Origin: Lutibacter flavus | GTDB lineage: Bacteria > Bacteroidota > Bacteroidia > Flavobacteriales > Flavobacteriaceae | Direction of reading: 5' to 3' | Length of the DNA stretch: 64,000 bases | Assembly: GCF_900188355.1 (NCBI RefSeq) | Contig: NZ_FZNX01000001.1 | Coordinates: 481,754 to 545,753, forward strand | In this document: positions 3,994 through 63,892 of the stretch, piece after piece | How positions within the stretch are numbered: position 1 is the stretch's first letter | Layout: each line of letters starts with the position of its first letter | The notes under the pieces: generated by a model | Told to the model about the DNA's origin: nothing | Database searches by the model: none | The model's input: only the letters and a program-made list of their open reading frames with translations | Position numbers and translations under genes: made by a program

Positions 3994-4686
3994 TTAATAT
4001 CCTTCAGATATGTTTTTTAATGCAATTTTATTTATAATTTTTATTCTTTTACCCAATAAATCAATTACACCGTCTTTCTTTAAGTTGGATAATAATCTAA
4101 TAGCAGATTCTGTTGCTGTACCAATGGTATTTGCAATTTCTTCTCTCGTTAAAACAACATCAATACATTTTTCATTGTCAACTCCAAAAATTTCTTCTAA
4201 ATACAATAAAGTTTCAGCTAACCTATCTTTTACAGGTTTTTGAGCCATTTGAGATATTGAAGTATTAGCATCATTTAATTGCTGAGAAATATTTTTCATT
4301 AAATTTAAAGAAAACTGAGTATTCTCTTTTATGGTATCTAATATATCTCCTTTTGGGATAAAGCATACATGCATATCTTCTAGAGCGATTGCATTTAAAC
4401 CGACTAAATCTTCACTTAAAATAGATCTGTGACCTAATATATCACCACCTTTTATAAATTTTATTATTTGCTCTTTACCGTTAGTGTTTAATTTTGTTAG
4501 CTTTCCTTTGCCATCTTTAATACAGTATAACCCATTTATTGCATTACCTTCAGTCATTAAATTTTCGCCCTTCTTAATTAAAAGTGAAGTTTTATGGTCA
4601 GATATTCTTTCTAACTCTTCATTAGTTAATGTTTTAAGGGCATTAAATCTTTTGATAATACATTGTCTGCAATTCGACATATTCAT
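3994..4686 (-). CDS. Crp/Fnr-family regulator with a three-cysteine Fnr-like pattern
   Basis: 230 residues: a cyclic-nucleotide-like sensor fold (about 20-140), a dimer helix, and a winged-helix DNA-binding domain with recognition helix around 188-200. C6-x2-C9 at the N terminus and C108 in MHVCFIPKGD align with Fnr C20, C23 and C122. The position of C29 is N15, so one canonical cluster ligand is missing; C55 and C174 are the other cysteines. The recognition helix keeps the Fnr glutamate and arginine (E193, R197) that read the TGA core, but the intervening Fnr serine is I196. It is divergent from ccoI, and a TGAT-N4-ATCA box sits between them. It is likely the oxygen- or redox-responsive regulator of the cbb3 genes. 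Cluster binding is inference. Confidence 0.85.
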   Translation of the reverse strand: MNMSNCRQCIIKRFNALKTLTNEELERISDHKTSLLIKKGENLMTEGNAINGLYCIKDGKGKLTKLNTNGKEQIIKFIKGGDILGHRSILSEDLVGLNAIALEDMHVCFIPKGDILDTIKENTQFSLNLMKNISQQLNDANTSISQMAQKPVKDRLAETLLYLEEIFGVDNEKCIDVVLTREEIANTIGTATESAIRLLSNLKKDGVIDLLGKRIKIINKIALKNISEGY

Positions 4687-4712: not shown

Positions 4713-4720
4713 CAAATGTA
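4713..4720 (-). promoter_or_regulatory. -7 box TACATTTG of the Fnr-type regulator gene
   Basis: Exact TAnnTTTG on the minus strand, 27 bases from the start codon. The Fnr-type palindrome at 4731-4742 is centred only 16.5 bp upstream of this box. It therefore covers the core promoter, which would suit autorepression. Confidence 0.55.
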
Positions 4721-4730
4721 CAAAATAAAA

Positions 4731-4742
4731 TGATTTTTATCA
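4731..4742. promoter_or_regulatory. Fnr-type operator TGAT-N4-ATCA in the fnr/ccoI divergent promoter
   Basis: Perfect 12-bp palindrome, flanked by A and T, matching the inner part of the Fnr box TTGAT-N4-ATCAA. Its centre is 28.5 bp before the ccoI -7 box and 16.5 bp before the fnr -7 box. This geometry suits activation of ccoI and repression of fnr. Confidence 0.7.
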
Positions 4743-4764: not shown

Positions 4765-4772
4765 TAGTTTTG
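4765..4772 (+). promoter_or_regulatory. -7 box TAGTTTTG of ccoI
   Basis: Exact TAnnTTTG 19 bases before the ccoI ATG. There is no TTG at -33, as expected for an activator-dependent promoter. The Fnr-type palindrome occupies the region near -41. Confidence 0.55.
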
Positions 4773-4790: not shown

Positions 4791-7160
4791 ATGACATTAA
4801 ACAATTGTTATCATTGTGGAATAGACTGTGGAAGAACGCCTATTGAATTTAATGATAAATATTTTTGCTGTAACGGTTGTAAAACTGTTTACGAAATATT
4901 AAATGTAAATGAATTAACTTGTTATTATGATTTAGAAACCTCTCCTGGAACTATTCCAAAAGATATTAAAGGTAAATACAACTATTTAGATAATAAAGAT
5001 ATTATTGAAAAACTTTTGGAATTCAATGATACAGAAACTTCAGTAGTTGAATTTTATATTCCAAGTATACATTGTAGTTCATGTATTTGGGTGTTAGAAA
5101 ATTTGAGTAAATTAAACGAAGGCGTAACAACTTCTATGGTAAATTTTCCAAAGAAATTATTACGTATTACATTTAAAAATAAAAGAACCAATTTAAAAGA
5201 ATTGGTAGAGTTAATTACTTCAATTGGTTACGAACCTTATATTAGCTTAGAGGATGCAGATTCAAAAAATAAAAATGTTGATAAAACCTTAATTTATCAA
5301 GTTTCAATAGCAGCATTTGCTTTTGGAAACATAATGTTACTCTCTTTTCCAGAATATTTTGAAGTTGATGAGTTTTGGCTGGAAAAGTACAAACATTTAT
5401 TTAGATTATTAATGTTTACAATGGCGATTCCTGTTGTATTTTATTCTGCAAAGGACTATTTTATTTCAGCTTATAAAGGGTTGCGTCATAAACTATTGAA
5501 TATTGATGTGCCTATTGCTTTGGGAATTTCAGTTTTATTTATTAGAAGTACAATTGAAATACTTTTAGATATTGGATCTGGTTTTTTTGATAGTTTGGCA
5601 GGATTGATTTTCTTTTTGTTATTAGGTAAATTTTTTCAACAAAAAACATACAATTTTCTTTCATTTGAAAGAGATTATAAATCTTATTTTCCTATTGCAG
5701 TAACCTTAATTTTGAATAATAAAGAAACAAGTGTTCAAGTAAAAGATATTAAAAAAGGGGATCGACTTTTAATAAGAAATGAAGAATTGATTCCAGTTGA
5801 TGGAATTTTAATTAATGGAAATGCAGCAATTGATTATAGCTTTGTAACTGGTGAATCTATTCCTGTAATGAAACAATCTGGTGATAAATTGTTTGCAGGT
5901 GGCAAACAAACTTCAGGAGCTATTGAAATGGAAGTAATTAGTTCAATTTCTCAAAGTTATTTAACTCAATTATGGAGTAATGATATTTTCAATAAAAGTG
6001 AAGACTTCACAATTAAAAATATTACAGATAGAATTAGTAAATATTTTACAGTTGCAATTTTATTAATTGCAATGTTTGCAGGTGTGTTTTGGTATTTTTA
6101 TAATGCTTCTATGGCCTTTAATGTGGTTACAGCAGTATTGATTATTGCTTGTCCTTGCGCATTGGCTTTATCTGCTCCATTTGCTTTTGGTAATATTTTA
6201 AGAATTTTTGGATACAAAAAATTTTATTTAAAAAATGCAGAAACCATTGAGAATATATCGAAAGTTGATACAATTATTTTTGATAAAACGGGTACAATTA
6301 CTTCTAACAATAAAACGAATATAGATTATAAGGGTACAGAATTAACTAATGAAGAAAAAACAGGGTTGAAAAGTGTTCTACGTGCATCAAATCATCCACT
6401 AAGTAGGTCTCTTTATGAGTTAATAAATGAAGATGCTATTGCTGAAAAACCTTCTGAATTTAAAGAGATTTTAGGAAAAGGAATTGTTGCAACTATAAAT
6501 GATATGAATTTTAAGTTGGGTTCTTCAAGTTTTGTTGAAGCTAAAACAATAAATGCAAATGAAACATCAATATATATTAAAATAAATGATGAGTATAAGG
6601 GTTTTTATATATTTAAAAATAGTTATAGAGAAGGTTTAAAAGAAGTTTTTAATAAATTGTCAAAACATTATAAATTAATTATTCTTTCAGGAGACAATGA
6701 AGGAGAACAACCTTATTTAGAAAAATTATTACCAGCTAATATTCAATATCAATTTAATCAAAAACCAGAAAATAAATTGGAGTTTATAAAGAATCTTCAA
6801 GAAAAAGGAGAAAGGGTTATGATGATAGGGGATGGATTGAATGATGCTGGAGCATTAGCTCAAAGTAATGTTGGAATCTCCATTTCTGAAGATGTAAATG
6901 TTTTTTCGCCCGCTTGTGATGCAATTTTAGATGCAAAACTTTTTAACAAACTGCCAAAGTTCTTAACATTGTCTAATAAAACTATAAAAATTATTAAAGC
7001 GAGTTTTGTACTTTCTTTGTGTTATAATGTTATTGGGATGTATTTTGCATTAAACGGATTGCTAACACCCGTAGTTGCTGCCATATTAATGCCTTTAAGC
7101 TCAATTTCTATAGTAGTATTTGTAACAATTTTAACTAATTGGGTATCAAAAAAAATATAA
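4791..7160 (+). CDS. ccoI: Copper-type P1B ATPase of cbb3 oxidase assembly (CcoI/FixI)
   Basis: Inner-membrane ATPase expected to move copper for the CcoN active site. Order: a cysteine-rich N-terminal metal-binding region (C6, C9, C13, C26, C27, C30), a heavy-metal-associated domain with CSSC at 95-98, membrane helices, the actuator TGES, the ion-path motif CPCAL, the phosphorylation site DKTGT, the nucleotide-domain SNHPLSR and the hinge GDGLNDAGAL. The length of 789 residues fits the FixI group, which carries the extra zinc-ribbon-like N terminus absent from plain CopA. It precedes ccoS by 114 bases and has its own Fnr-box promoter. Position beside ccoS-NO-Q-P fixes the role. Confidence 0.93.
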   Translation: MTLNNCYHCGIDCGRTPIEFNDKYFCCNGCKTVYEILNVNELTCYYDLETSPGTIPKDIKGKYNYLDNKDIIEKLLEFNDTETSVVEFYIPSIHCSSCIWVLENLSKLNEGVTTSMVNFPKKLLRITFKNKRTNLKELVELITSIGYEPYISLEDADSKNKNVDKTLIYQVSIAAFAFGNIMLLSFPEYFEVDEFWLEKYKHLFRLLMFTMAIPVVFYSAKDYFISAYKGLRHKLLNIDVPIALGISVLFIRSTIEILLDIGSGFFDSLAGLIFFLLLGKFFQQKTYNFLSFERDYKSYFPIAVTLILNNKETSVQVKDIKKGDRLLIRNEELIPVDGILINGNAAIDYSFVTGESIPVMKQSGDKLFAGGKQTSGAIEMEVISSISQSYLTQLWSNDIFNKSEDFTIKNITDRISKYFTVAILLIAMFAGVFWYFYNASMAFNVVTAVLIIACPCALALSAPFAFGNILRIFGYKKFYLKNAETIENISKVDTIIFDKTGTITSNNKTNIDYKGTELTNEEKTGLKSVLRASNHPLSRSLYELINEDAIAEKPSEFKEILGKGIVATINDMNFKLGSSSFVEAKTINANETSIYIKINDEYKGFYIFKNSYREGLKEVFNKLSKHYKLIILSGDNEGEQPYLEKLLPANIQYQFNQKPENKLEFIKNLQEKGERVMMIGDGLNDAGALAQSNVGISISEDVNVFSPACDAILDAKLFNKLPKFLTLSNKTIKIIKASFVLSLCYNVIGMYFALNGLLTPVVAAILMPLSSISIVVFVTILTNWVSKKI

Positions 7161-7197
7161 CTTTTATAAACTGATTTTTTTTGCTAAATTTATAATA

Positions 7198-7209
7198 TGA
7201 TAATTATCA
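7198..7209. promoter_or_regulatory. Fnr-type operator TGAT-N4-ATCA upstream of ccoS
   Basis: Perfect 12-bp palindrome inside an 18-bp perfect palindrome (7195-7212). Its centre is 28.5 bp before the -7 box at 7232, the same spacing as at ccoI. Confidence 0.75.
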
Positions 7210-7231
7210 TATAATTTTTCCAATAAAAAAT

Positions 7232-7239
7232 TATTTTTG
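7232..7239 (+). promoter_or_regulatory. -7 box TATTTTTG of the ccoS-NOQP operon
   Basis: Exact TAnnTTTG 35 bases before the ccoS ATG and downstream of the Fnr-type palindrome. It indicates an internal promoter separating ccoI from the structural oxidase genes. Confidence 0.6.
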
Positions 7240-7274: not shown

Positions 7275-7460
7275 ATGGAAGTCGTATACATTACAATAGG
7301 CGTAAGTATAGTTGTTGCCGTATTTTTTTTCATAATATTTATTAAATCAGTTAAATCGGGGCAGTACGAGGACATGTACACGCCTTCAATTCGTATGTTG
7401 TTTGATGATGAACTAGTCACTACAAAAGAAAAAGATAAAAAAGAAAAGTCAACTAAATAA
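7275..7460 (+). CDS. ccoS: cbb3 oxidase maturation protein CcoS
   Basis: 61-residue single-span membrane protein needed for insertion of heme b and copper into CcoN in studied systems. The helix spans residues 4-25. It is followed by the family motif of a charged GQYEDMYTPSIRMLFDDE segment. It is first in the operon, with ccoNO starting 24 bases downstream. The size and motif match CcoS well. Confidence 0.88.
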   Translation: MEVVYITIGVSIVVAVFFFIIFIKSVKSGQYEDMYTPSIRMLFDDELVTTKEKDKKEKSTK

Positions 7461-7484: not shown

Positions 7485-9653
7485 ATGGAAAAAGAACAGT
7501 TTTATTATGATAATAAAATCGTAAAAATGTTTCTTTGGGCTACAATTCTTTGGGGAGTTGTAGGAATGTTAGTAGGGCTATTAGTAGCGCTACTTTTTGT
7601 TTTCCCAGGATTATTGGAATTTGCAGGAGCAGACAATGCTATTTCTTGGTTAAGTTTTGGTCGTTTACGCCCATTACATACCAATGCTGTAATTTTTGCC
7701 TTTGTAGGTAATGGAATCTTTTTAGGGATTTATTATTCTACTCAAAGGTTGCTTAAAGCAAGAATGTTTAATGATGTTTTAAGTAGAGTACATTTTTGGG
7801 GATGGCAAGCAATTATTGTTGCTGCTGCTATTACATTACCATTAGGGTTAACTTCTTCAAAAGAATATGCAGAATTAGAATGGCCAATTGATATTGCTGT
7901 TGTTTTAATTTGGGTGATTTTTGGAATTAATTTAATTGGTACCATTTTAAAGCGAAGACAACGACATATTTATGTTGCAATCTGGTTTTATATAGCCACC
8001 TTTATTACAATTGCGGTTCTATACATATTTAATAATTTAGAAATGCCGGTAAGTGCTTTTAAAAGTTACTCGGTGTATTCTGGTGTTCAAGATGCTTTAG
8101 TGCAATGGTGGTATGGACATAATGCGGTGGCGTTTTTCTTAACAACTCCAGTATTAGGTTTAATGTATTATTTTGTTCCTAAAGTAGCAAATAGACCAGT
8201 TTATTCATATAGACTTTCTATCATCCACTTCTGGACCTTAATTTTCTTATACATTTGGGCTGGACCTCACCATTTATTATATACGGCATTGCCAGAATGG
8301 GCGCAAAACTTAGGTACTGTATTCTCTATAATGTTAATTTTCCCATCTTGGGGTGGTATGATCAACGGTTTGTTAACACTACGTGGTGCTTGGGATAAAG
8401 TTAGAGAAAACCCGGTTTTAAAATTCTTTGTTGTTGCAATTACAGGTTATGGAATGGCAACGTTTGAAGGTCCAATGTTATCATTTAAAAACTTAAATGC
8501 AATTGGTCATTATACCGACTGGATTGTTGGTCATGTTCATATTGGAGCTTTGGCTTGGAACGGATTTATGGTTGCAGGTATTGTTTATTGGTTAGCTGAA
8601 AAACTTTGGAAAACACCATTATATTCTAAAAAATTAGCTAACACTCATTTCTGGTTAGGTACTTTAGGTATTTTATTTTATGCAATTCCGTTATATGTTG
8701 CTGGCTTTACGCAAGCATTTATGTGGAAACAATTCAACCCAGATGGAACATTAGTTTATGGAAATTTCCTAGAAACTGTTACGCAGGTTATACCAATGTA
8801 TGCAATGCGTGCAATAGGAGGAACTTTATATTTAACAGGTTTTATTTTATTAGCAATTAATGTAATTAAAACTGCAAAAGCAGGTTCAACTGTAGAAGAC
8901 GAATTAGCAGAGGCTGCACCATTGAAGAAAATTAGTGGTAAAAGAGTTGCTGGTGAAGGATTCCATACTTGGTTAGAAAGAAGAGTAGTTTTATTTACAA
9001 TATTAACAACTATTGCAATTTTAATTGGTGGTTTAGTGGAAATTGTTCCTTTGATATTAGTAAAATCAAATGTGCCAACAATTACAAGTGTTAAGCCTTA
9101 TACACCTTTAGAATTAGAAGGTAGAGACATTTATATAAGAGAAGGTTGTAATAACTGTCACTCTCAAATGATTCGCCCTTTCCGATCGGAAGTTGAGCGA
9201 TATGGAGAATATTCTAAAGCAGGTGAGTTTGTATATGATTTCCCATTCTTATGGGGTTCACGTAGAACTGGACCAGATGTTCATAGAATTGGAGGTAAAT
9301 ACAACGATAACTGGCACTTTAATCACATGATGGATCCTCGATCTACTTCACCTGGTTCGATTATGCCGCGTTACACTTGGTTAATTAAAAATGACATGAA
9401 TGCTTCTAATTTAGAAAGTAAAATGACTGGTTTAGTTTCTTTAGGTGTACCATATACTCCAGAACGAATAAGTGGAGCTAAACAAGAATTGTTAGCACAA
9501 GCAAAAGAAGTTGAAAATAATTTAAGACAAGATCCAGAGTTTGTTAAAAATTATGGTTCTAGTAATATACAAAATAAAGAAATTGTTGCATTAATTGCTT
9601 ACTTACAGCGCTTAGGTACTGACATAAAAGCAAATAAAACAGCATTAAAATAA
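7485..9653 (+). CDS. ccoNO: Fused CcoN-CcoO subunit of cbb3 cytochrome c oxidase
   Basis: 722 residues joining the catalytic subunit I and the heme-c subunit II, a fusion usual in Bacteroidota. Residues 1 to about 480 are the twelve-helix CcoN part, with heme and copper ligands in RLRPLHTNAV, WWYGHNAVAFF, AGPHHLLYTALPEW and GHYTDWIVGHVHIG. A further helix near 500-525 anchors the periplasmic CcoO domain, whose heme site is C555-x2-C558-H559. The distal methionine is probably in SPGSIMPRY. It reduces oxygen to water at low oxygen tension while pumping protons. It is followed by ccoQ after 6 bases. Confidence 0.95.
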   Translation: MEKEQFYYDNKIVKMFLWATILWGVVGMLVGLLVALLFVFPGLLEFAGADNAISWLSFGRLRPLHTNAVIFAFVGNGIFLGIYYSTQRLLKARMFNDVLSRVHFWGWQAIIVAAAITLPLGLTSSKEYAELEWPIDIAVVLIWVIFGINLIGTILKRRQRHIYVAIWFYIATFITIAVLYIFNNLEMPVSAFKSYSVYSGVQDALVQWWYGHNAVAFFLTTPVLGLMYYFVPKVANRPVYSYRLSIIHFWTLIFLYIWAGPHHLLYTALPEWAQNLGTVFSIMLIFPSWGGMINGLLTLRGAWDKVRENPVLKFFVVAITGYGMATFEGPMLSFKNLNAIGHYTDWIVGHVHIGALAWNGFMVAGIVYWLAEKLWKTPLYSKKLANTHFWLGTLGILFYAIPLYVAGFTQAFMWKQFNPDGTLVYGNFLETVTQVIPMYAMRAIGGTLYLTGFILLAINVIKTAKAGSTVEDELAEAAPLKKISGKRVAGEGFHTWLERRVVLFTILTTIAILIGGLVEIVPLILVKSNVPTITSVKPYTPLELEGRDIYIREGCNNCHSQMIRPFRSEVERYGEYSKAGEFVYDFPFLWGSRRTGPDVHRIGGKYNDNWHFNHMMDPRSTSPGSIMPRYTWLIKNDMNASNLESKMTGLVSLGVPYTPERISGAKQELLAQAKEVENNLRQDPEFVKNYGSSNIQNKEIVALIAYLQRLGTDIKANKTALK

Positions 9654-9659
9654 TTTTAT

Positions 9660-9860
9660 ATGTTAAAATTTATTAAACATAATTTAGAAGGTATAGATGG
9701 AGTTGAAATTTATCCTATAATTTCACTACTACTTTTTTTTACTGTATTTATTACAATGATTATTTTTGTATATAAACTACCAAAAAAAAGTATCGAAGAA
9801 GTAAGTCAGTTACCTTTAGATCAAGATACTAATATTAAAGAAAACAGTCATCATGAATAA
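9660..9860 (+). CDS. ccoQ: Small cbb3 subunit CcoQ
   Basis: 66-residue one-span membrane protein (helix about 19-39) between ccoNO and ccoP, overlapping ccoP by 8 bases. The KLPKKSIEEVSQLPL segment after the helix matches the CcoQ/FixQ pattern of a hydrophobic span followed by a short charged cytoplasmic tail. The call rests mainly on position and topology. Confidence 0.75.
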   Translation: MLKFIKHNLEGIDGVEIYPIISLLLFFTVFITMIIFVYKLPKKSIEEVSQLPLDQDTNIKENSHHE

Positions 9861-10500
9861 GAATTCAGAGAACATATCGGGTTGGAAAAAATTTATGAAA
9901 TCCATGACAAAAGCCCACGATTTAGGAACAGAGGAAGACATAATGTTGGATCATGATTATGATGGGATAAAAGAATTAGATAATGTACTACCGCCTTGGT
10001 GGTTATATGGTTTTTATATAACCATAGCAATTAGTGCATTTTATATCTTTCAAGTATTTTATAATTCTGAAAATTATAGCCAAACCAAGGAATATGAAAC
10101 GGCAGTTGCAGAAGGGAAAGCAGAGGTCGAAGCCTATAAAGAAGCTAATCCACAATTATTTGACGATAGTAATATTGTAGCGTTAACAGATGCTGCTGAT
10201 ATTGCAAAAGGTAAAGAGTTATTTACTTCAAAAACTTGTACAGCTTGTCATTTAGCAGATTTAGGAGGAAGTATTGGCCCAAACTTAACTGATAATAAAT
10301 GGATTTTAGGAGGAGATGTAAAAAGCCTTTTTAATACTATTTCTAAAGGCGGAAGACCAGGAAAAGGGATGATAGCTTGGGAAAGCACCATTAGTAGAGA
10401 TGAAAGAATTCAATTGGCAAGTTATATTATCTCAATGCAAGGTACAGAGCCCGCAACTCCAAAACCTGCCGAGGGAGATATTATTTGGCCCGAAGAATAG
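9853..10500 (+). CDS. ccoP: Monoheme CcoP subunit of cbb3 oxidase
   Basis: 215 residues: a short cytoplasmic N terminus, one membrane helix (about 48-70), a helical linker and a single cytochrome c domain with C129-x2-C132-H133. The likely distal methionine is in GKGMIAWE. Textbook CcoP has two c-hemes; here the first heme domain is replaced by the short acidic linker, so this oxidase carries only two c-type hemes in total (CcoO and CcoP). The start codon overlaps ccoQ. A strong terminator follows. Confidence 0.9.
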   Translation: MNKNSENISGWKKFMKSMTKAHDLGTEEDIMLDHDYDGIKELDNVLPPWWLYGFYITIAISAFYIFQVFYNSENYSQTKEYETAVAEGKAEVEAYKEANPQLFDDSNIVALTDAADIAKGKELFTSKTCTACHLADLGGSIGPNLTDNKWILGGDVKSLFNTISKGGRPGKGMIAWESTISRDERIQLASYIISMQGTEPATPKPAEGDIIWPEE

Positions 10501-63849: not shown

Positions 63850-63857
63850 CAAATTTA
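63850..63857 (-). promoter_or_regulatory. -7 box TAAATTTG of ppdK
   Basis: Exact TAnnTTTG on the minus strand, 44 bases before the start codon. Confidence 0.55.
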
Positions 63858-63880
63858 AGCACAGTATTTAAAGTTTATTA

Positions 63881-63892
63881 TGATTTATGTCA
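63881..63892. promoter_or_regulatory. Crp/Fnr-type site TGAT-N4-GTCA upstream of ppdK
   Basis: One step from a perfect palindrome: a TGAT half-site and a TGAC half-site. The centre is 29.5 bp before the -7 box, one base off the spacing at ccoI and ccoS. Confidence 0.55.

Follow-up and report, generated by a model that had tools for sequence, protein, structure and literature searches.

At the Class II FNR- and CRP-dependent promoters of E. coli, the operator lies at −41.5, the textbook position for both regulators, where it overlaps the upstream core element and is flanked by A/T tracts; the FNR box itself reads TTGAT-N4-ATCAA, and Crp/Fnr operators inside promoters can also repress. The usual Bacteroidota promoter takes the form TTG-N17–23-TANNTTTG, in which TTG is the −33 element. 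For Flavobacterium psychrophilum, passages of PMC9723704 place the −7 box, TAnnTTTG, at −12 to −5 and describe strong up-regulation of the cbb3 oxidase under oxygen limitation. According to passages of PMC7888657, a rhizobial operator termed the anaerobox lies upstream of both fixNOQP and fixGHIS and is bound by FixK, which belongs to the FixL pathway, and by FnrN. We regard the rhizobial anaerobox as the closest known system to the one described here; the case for functional likeness is strong, and we read the site discussed below as a putative 'anaerobox' shared among Bacteroidota.

We analysed a stretch of 64,000 nucleotides of the Lutibacter flavus genome (the window) that carries a ccoS-NOQP operon, ccoI and, divergent from ccoI, a gene for an Fnr-like regulator (Table 1); its ccoNO shares 96% identity with ccoNO of Lutibacter oceani. 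An earlier note on this DNA had described an 18-bp perfect palindrome containing TGAT-N4-ATCA upstream of ccoS, and both the sequence and the coordinates proved exact, as did the claim of equal geometry at the ccoS and ccoI promoters: the gap from ATCA to the TA of the −7 box measures 22 bp in both, corresponding to 28.5 bp from operator centre to box. Our proposal, at a probability of roughly 0.86, is that a dimeric activator of the Crp/Fnr family uses the palindrome as its Class II operator and would turn on ccoS-NOQP as oxygen falls. A further site of this kind, TGACATAAATCA followed by TAAATTTG at gap 23, is found on the minus strand at 63850–63892 of the window (G000:C8:545603–545645).

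Table 1. Promoter elements and genes of the cco region in the window, with positions counted from its first nucleotide
Feature	Position	Strand	Remarks
Fnr-like regulator gene	3994–4686	−	C6, C9, C55, C108; recognition helix TATESAIR
−7 box of the divergent fnr-like promoter	4713–4720	−	TACATTTG; gap 10, operator centre near −28.5; autorepression predicted
Operator common to the fnr-like/ccoI divergent intergenic region	4731–4742	.	TGATTTTTATCA
−7 box of the ccoI promoter	4765–4772	+	TAGTTTTG; gap 22
ccoI, copper-transport P-type ATPase for cbb3 assembly	4791–7160	+	Pfam E1-E2_ATPase, ATPase-cat_bd, HMA
Crp/Fnr-type operator at ccoS	7195–7212	.	ATATGATAATTATCATAT; core TGAT-N4-ATCA 7198–7209, centre 7203.5, predicted −40.5
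−7 box of the ccoS promoter	7232–7239	+	TATTTTTG; primary sigma factor of Bacteroidota; cf. TAnnTTTG in F. psychrophilum (passages of PMC9723704)
ccoS	7275–7460	+	Pfam FixS, 1.4e-18
ccoN-ccoO fusion	7485–9653	+	Pfam COX1 and FixO
ccoQ	9660–9860	+	Pfam FixQ, 6.7e-05, 23.2 bits (below the cut-off of 29); position
ccoP	9853–10500	+	Pfam FixP_N and Cytochrome_CBB3

The significance of the ccoS palindrome comes from its spacing and conservation and not from the palindrome itself. The window contains one perfect 18-mer palindrome against 0.88 expected in a first-order Markov simulation, and since any such window should hold about one 18-mer of this kind, we rejected the palindrome as evidence on its own; TGATN4ATCA occurs four times against an expectation of 2.07, a count reached by 12 of 100 shuffles. 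The motif TTGATN4ATCAA was likewise uninformative, with 107 matches at up to two mismatches against 112 expected. Combined with the box, the motif is no longer ordinary: within the 3.89-Mb home genome, TGATN4ATCA-N22-TANNTTTG matches only the ccoS and ccoI sites (reversed control, 0). When the gap is allowed to vary from 8 to 38, TGATN4ATCA followed by TANNTTTG gives 29 matches there, against 3 for the reversed pattern; 12 of these lie at gap 23, two at gap 22 (the ccoS and ccoI sites) and two at gap 24, with 13 scattered. Of the 1238 operator/box pairs detected in 149 family genomes, 529 have gaps of 22–24, where an even spread across 31 spacings would place 3/31; the reversed control has 35 of its 406 pairs there. 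At least one such pair is present in 124 of the 149 genomes.

Conservation was assessed in the best 80 of at least 590 loci encoding CcoNO, with neighbouring genes placed by tblastn. Upstream regions of up to 220 bp were taken for ccoS from 70 of the 80 loci and for ccoI from 63, in each case together with the window; loci whose ccoS or ccoI start lay more than six residues from the query start, or whose upstream sequence was too short, were left out. A search for TGAY-N4-RTCA followed by the box NANNTTT(G/A) at gaps 8–38 found a pair in 45 of 71 ccoS and 45 of 64 ccoI upstream regions. Among the flavobacterial loci (L040–L090 and the window), a site at gaps 22–24 is present in 42/47 ccoS and 40/42 ccoI regions, so that the palindromic site is kept in the alignment of orthologues by which the earlier note had proposed to check it; three loci (L042, L043 and L086) fail at ccoS solely through a one-letter mismatch in the box. 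In the remoter loci (L091–L119), the site is present in only 3/24 ccoS and 4/22 ccoI regions. The consensus of the cco operators is (A/C)TGAY-N4-RTCAT, with ATGAT-N4-ATCAT in the window; the orthologues thus show TGAY where the half-site had been taken as fixed at TGAT. Judged by this conservation, the ccoS site is considered functional.

The spacing needs a correction. Gap 23 accounts for 70 of the 82 flavobacterial sites (37/42 at ccoS, 33/40 at ccoI), which makes 29.5 bp the modal distance, and 28.5 bp, which had been offered as the defining spacing, was rejected as the architecture. Each Lutibacter-type locus (window, L040 and L041) has gap 22 at both of its cco promoters, six of six in total, against only 2 of 76 promoters elsewhere (Fisher p = 8e-8, for related loci that are not independent). 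From this distribution we take the conserved spacing to be 29.5 bp and the 28.5-bp form to be a lineage-specific shortening by 1 bp that affects both promoters. Counted on both strands of the whole 80 cco loci, gaps of 23, 22 and 24 occur 66, 6 and 4 times and gaps of 9, 10 and 11 occur 9, 8 and 2 times; every remaining gap occurs at most three times, leaving two peaks only (23 and 9–11), and reversed sequences have none. Several features of these loci were recorded alongside. The ccoI −7 box has T at −12 in 8 of 44 cases and the ccoS box in 45 of 45 (L040–L119), and the Lutibacter-type ccoI boxes combine T at −12 with the shorter spacer. Many of the L040–L090 loci share a AGGTATAAATGAGCAAA-like leader downstream of the ccoI −7 box and ahead of the start codon, and L087–L090 have an extra operator at gap 23–24 downstream of the cco operon (minus strand, about 13.3–13.9 kb).

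If the box is placed at −12 to −5 as in F. psychrophilum, a gap of 23 puts the operator centre at −41.5 and a gap of 22 puts it at −40.5; the modal promoter would therefore have its operator at the Class II position, and the window's own sites would lie at −40.5. The upstream core element expected of Bacteroidota promoters is absent: TTG at 17–23 bp from the −7 box was found in 0 of 89 cco promoters, where shuffled segments predict 9.0 ± 2.3. In a small, mechanically chosen sample, TTG was present in 7 of 60 control promoters that lack the palindrome and in 0 of 21 that have it. All 76 aligned gap-23 promoters have T at −35, and the operator is flanked symmetrically by an A-tract at −53 to −50 and a T-tract at −33 to −30. 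The complete lack of TTG therefore supports the wording 'in place of the missing −33 element', and together with the conserved site it upholds the proposed architecture in which a Crp/Fnr-type dimer site replaces −33. Mechanistically, a Crp/Fnr-family dimer at the operator would switch on ccoS-NOQP as oxygen falls. The dimer would overlap the position at which sigma region 4 otherwise reads −33 and would hold RNA polymerase by protein contact instead, so that the promoter would be weak without it. The operator at 4731 would activate ccoI and, lying near −28 of the divergent promoter, would also repress the fnr-like gene.

The divergent promoter explains much of the second peak. Among 30 loci with a divergent fnr-like gene, 16, the window included (gap 10), have the fnr-like box 9–11 bp from the operator, which puts the operator near −28; the rest have a box at 23 in four cases (which would correspond to activation), at other distances in five, and none within 40 bp in five. 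The 17 operators without an adjacent fnr-like gene have a box at 9–11 in one case and at 23 in four. The 9–11 peak of the cco loci thus comes largely from the divergent fnr-like gene, and since the operator sits near −28 of its promoter, the simplest reading would be autorepression by promoter occupancy.

Turning to the regulator, the product of the fnr-like gene comprises cNMP-binding and HTH_Crp domains, and all 29 aligned orthologues keep its cysteines C6, C9, C55 and C108. In an alignment with Aliivibrio fischeri FNR, C6, C9 and C108 correspond to cluster cysteines of that protein. N or S stands in place of the third FNR cysteine (C29 of the E. coli protein), and the invariant C55 lies where FNR has Ala, so that only three of the four cluster cysteines are at FNR positions. 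The NCBIfam Fnr model NF008365 is the best of 12 NCBIfam matches, at 86.5 bits against a cut-off of 228. The predicted model (pLDDT 83) has the Crp fold, with a cNMP-binding-like domain and HTH_Crp; its best structural match is a Porphyromonas Crp/Fnr protein (TM 0.88), and it superposes on holo-FNR (5e44) with a TM of 0.81. As a label for the protein, the 'Fnr' of the earlier note is tentative: the neighbouring regulator is Fnr-like, but its cysteine pattern differs, it misses the NCBIfam cut-off, and the site is kept in genomes where the protein was not found. This adjacent four-cysteine protein is most likely the regulator in Lutibacter flavus.

Searching the home genome for TGAY sites at gaps 22–24 yielded 42, of which 32 lie at gap 23, with none in the reversed control. 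We inspected the surroundings of 33 of these sites in addition to the two cco sites. By Pfam, the genes behind the sites include a POR-domain oxoacid:ferredoxin oxidoreductase subunit, ferredoxin, NuoA, a ResB protein, FeoA and a Flavodoxin_5 protein, the last of which we take to be HemG-like. Genes for a rhodanese and a glyoxalase, and a further gene of the Crp/Fnr family, also follow such sites. A cytochrome c that appears NorC-like by eye matches Pfam Cytochrom_C and no NCBIfam model, and HypA-like and OorD-like proteins score 83.5 and 55.6 bits against NCBIfam cut-offs of 88.1 and 93, respectively. Two of the 33 inspected sites lie inside long reading frames, several precede genes without an evident link to oxygen, and three more, one of which precedes a usp gene, have no reading frame of at least 60 aa starting within 300 bp. 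Judged by these annotations, the POR-domain subunit, ferredoxin, NuoA, the ResB protein and FeoA, with the Flavodoxin_5, HypA-like and OorD-like proteins, make up a set that suits oxygen limitation. An operator stands ahead of a second Crp/Fnr-family gene, of 217 aa (L016/L035, G000:C8 near 77400–78100), which suggests a possible regulatory cascade.

Beyond the home genome, TGAY sites at gap 23 occur in 29 of 29 other genomes of the family (263 sites; control, 5), in 5 of 6 genomes of the order (24 sites; control, 0), in 31 of 37 of the class (112 sites; control, 7) and in 58 of 223 of the phylum outside the class. One genome of the same phylum but outside the class (G459, family f46) has 28 gap-23 sites, with a control of 0, compared with the 32 of the home genome.

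These data bear unequally on the alternatives to an activator site. That the palindrome arose by chance in AT-rich DNA, or is the stem of an RNA hairpin or terminator behind ccoI, is a reading to which we attach almost no weight: the expectation of about one 18-bp palindrome per window would allow it, but chance does not account for conservation and a fixed −7 box spacing across genera and unrelated genes, and the stem, which holds one G-C pair and is otherwise A/T, precedes the predicted start. The hairpin or terminator was accordingly rejected on position and fixed spacing. It is also very unlikely that the site serves a repressor, or an oxygen-independent Crp-type regulator such as one responding to a cyclic nucleotide. 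The fnr-like promoters, with their operator 9–11 bp from the box, would suit repression; the other promoters, however, are dominated by an operator at −41.5 with −33 absent, the classical activating geometry, and a repressor site would need neither the fixed spacing nor the loss of −33.

A rival that we consider unlikely, though far less so than these, accepts the activator site and assigns it to another protein: the principal regulator would be a two-component pair, made up of a FixL/DosP-like PAS histidine kinase and a receiver-cNMP-Crp fusion acting on the same TGAY-N4-RTCA, rather than the Fnr-like protein. Against this rival, 31 of 51 flavobacterial loci, a few of them truncated, have the fnr-like gene divergent from ccoI, and in 30 of the 51 the distance is within 200 bp. 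Co-occurrence was followed in 46 genomes behind cco loci, chosen to be rich in loci without an fnr-like gene nearby. Among them, 25 genomes have a cco site and 21 have none at the places tested; an Fnr-like protein (E 1e-45 or better) was found in 13 and 6 of these, respectively, and the link between protein and site is loose for that reason. Of the six, L092 and L100 carry a gap-23 site at another place in their locus, the L084 locus comes without its upstream region, and in Myroides (L081), L091 and L107 the protein is present and a matching site absent. Conversely, the Fnr-like protein was not found in 12 genomes with a cco site, among them five isolates: Mangrovimonas (L055), Psychroflexus (L061), Aquimarina (L073) and Aequorivita (L074 and L083). 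The operator stands at ccoI only in L055 and at both ccoS and ccoI in the other four, and a search of the five genomes for HTH_Crp_2 proteins found none with an N-terminal CxxC; the absence of the Fnr-like protein could also reflect a gap in the genomes.

Each of the five isolates has, by Pfam, one receiver-cNMP-HTH_Crp fusion, and its recognition helix, GIA(T/P)E(S/T)LIR, is close to the TATESAIR of the Fnr-like protein. The neighbours of the fusion in every isolate include a PAS histidine kinase and, as the next gene, usp (Pfam Usp, barely above the cut-off in L165), which itself carries the operator at gap 23; in the home genome, one of three such kinase/fusion/usp modules has a usp operator at gap 23. 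When compared with solved structures, the PAS domain of one home kinase (L121) matches FixL first (1d06, 8.6e-14) and then DosP, and it keeps the aligned FixL His and Arg. The PAS His of FixL is its heme ligand. The His is kept in all five isolate kinases and the Arg in four, but the kinases of the other two home modules (L120 and L122) lack the His. Fusion-sized relatives, near 350 aa, are also encoded in genomes without a cco operator (e.g., L102, L106, L108, L114 and L116), so that receiver-Crp fusions do not predict the operator. We infer that both the Fnr-like protein and the receiver-Crp fusion can read the same operator: the Fnr-like protein remains our preferred regulator in Lutibacter flavus, the pair of FixL-like kinase and receiver-Crp fusion probably uses the operator too, and in some genomes this pair is the only candidate found. 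In three of the five isolates (L166–L168), sites at gaps 24–25 just before the gene for the FixL-like kinase suggest that the kinase module may be autoregulated.

Taken further, and held with slightly more doubt than belief, the observations could describe an oxygen-response network of the Bacteroidota's own, built on one operator, TGAY-N4-RTCA, which at −41.5 would replace −33 at dozens of promoters. Two independent sensors would read it: the Fnr-like protein, with C6, C9, C55 and C108 as a rearranged ligand set, and a FixL-like heme-PAS kinase working with a response regulator-Crp activator fusion, as though the rhizobial FixL-FixJ-FixK cascade had been collapsed to two proteins. The outcome is a promoter rule for low-oxygen genes that can be put to the test in a large phylum with non-textbook promoters, along with two candidate sensors and, for the Lutibacter flavus genome, a predicted regulon of about 40 promoters. 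If the proposal is true, high-affinity respiration in flavobacteria would follow a two-sensor logic of the rhizobial type with differently built parts.

Among the titles and abstract openings listed from the open-licence literature, none concerned an Fnr-type operator, or such a geometry, in Bacteroidota. One review (PMC10620806) contains both 'Fnr' and 'TAnnTTTG', and the nearest paper on Crp/Fnr proteins in such genomes (PMC8510549) places homologues of one Flavobacteriales bin near MalR. With the Bacteroidota sigma-A promoters of PMC9723704, in the passages describing them, the cco promoters share the −7 box, and they differ in that the −33 TTG is missing and an operator stands in its place. 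Like E. coli Class II promoters, they have a −41.5 operator over the upstream element and A/T-tract flanks; unlike those, they use Bacteroidota elements, and their spacing is taken to TAnnTTTG and not to a mapped start. Neither ATGAT-N4-ATCAT nor the cco consensus has the FNR-box sequence. The Fnr-like protein resembles A. fischeri FNR (PDB 5e44 and relatives) in fold and in three aligned cysteines and departs from it in the N or S at the third cysteine and in C55 for Ala. Closest of all is the rhizobial anaerobox as passages of PMC7888657 present it: there too a single Crp/Fnr operator sits at a fixed position in front of the cbb3 operon and another in front of the assembly operon, two routes of oxygen sensing converge on one operator (predicted here), and the Fnr gene is autoregulated through a promoter-proximal site (likewise predicted here). 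The flavobacterial system differs from that account in belonging to another phylum, in its −33/−7 (TAnnTTTG) promoter and TGAY half-site without the leading TT, in the fusion of its response-regulator and Crp parts, and in the cysteine pattern of its Fnr-like protein.
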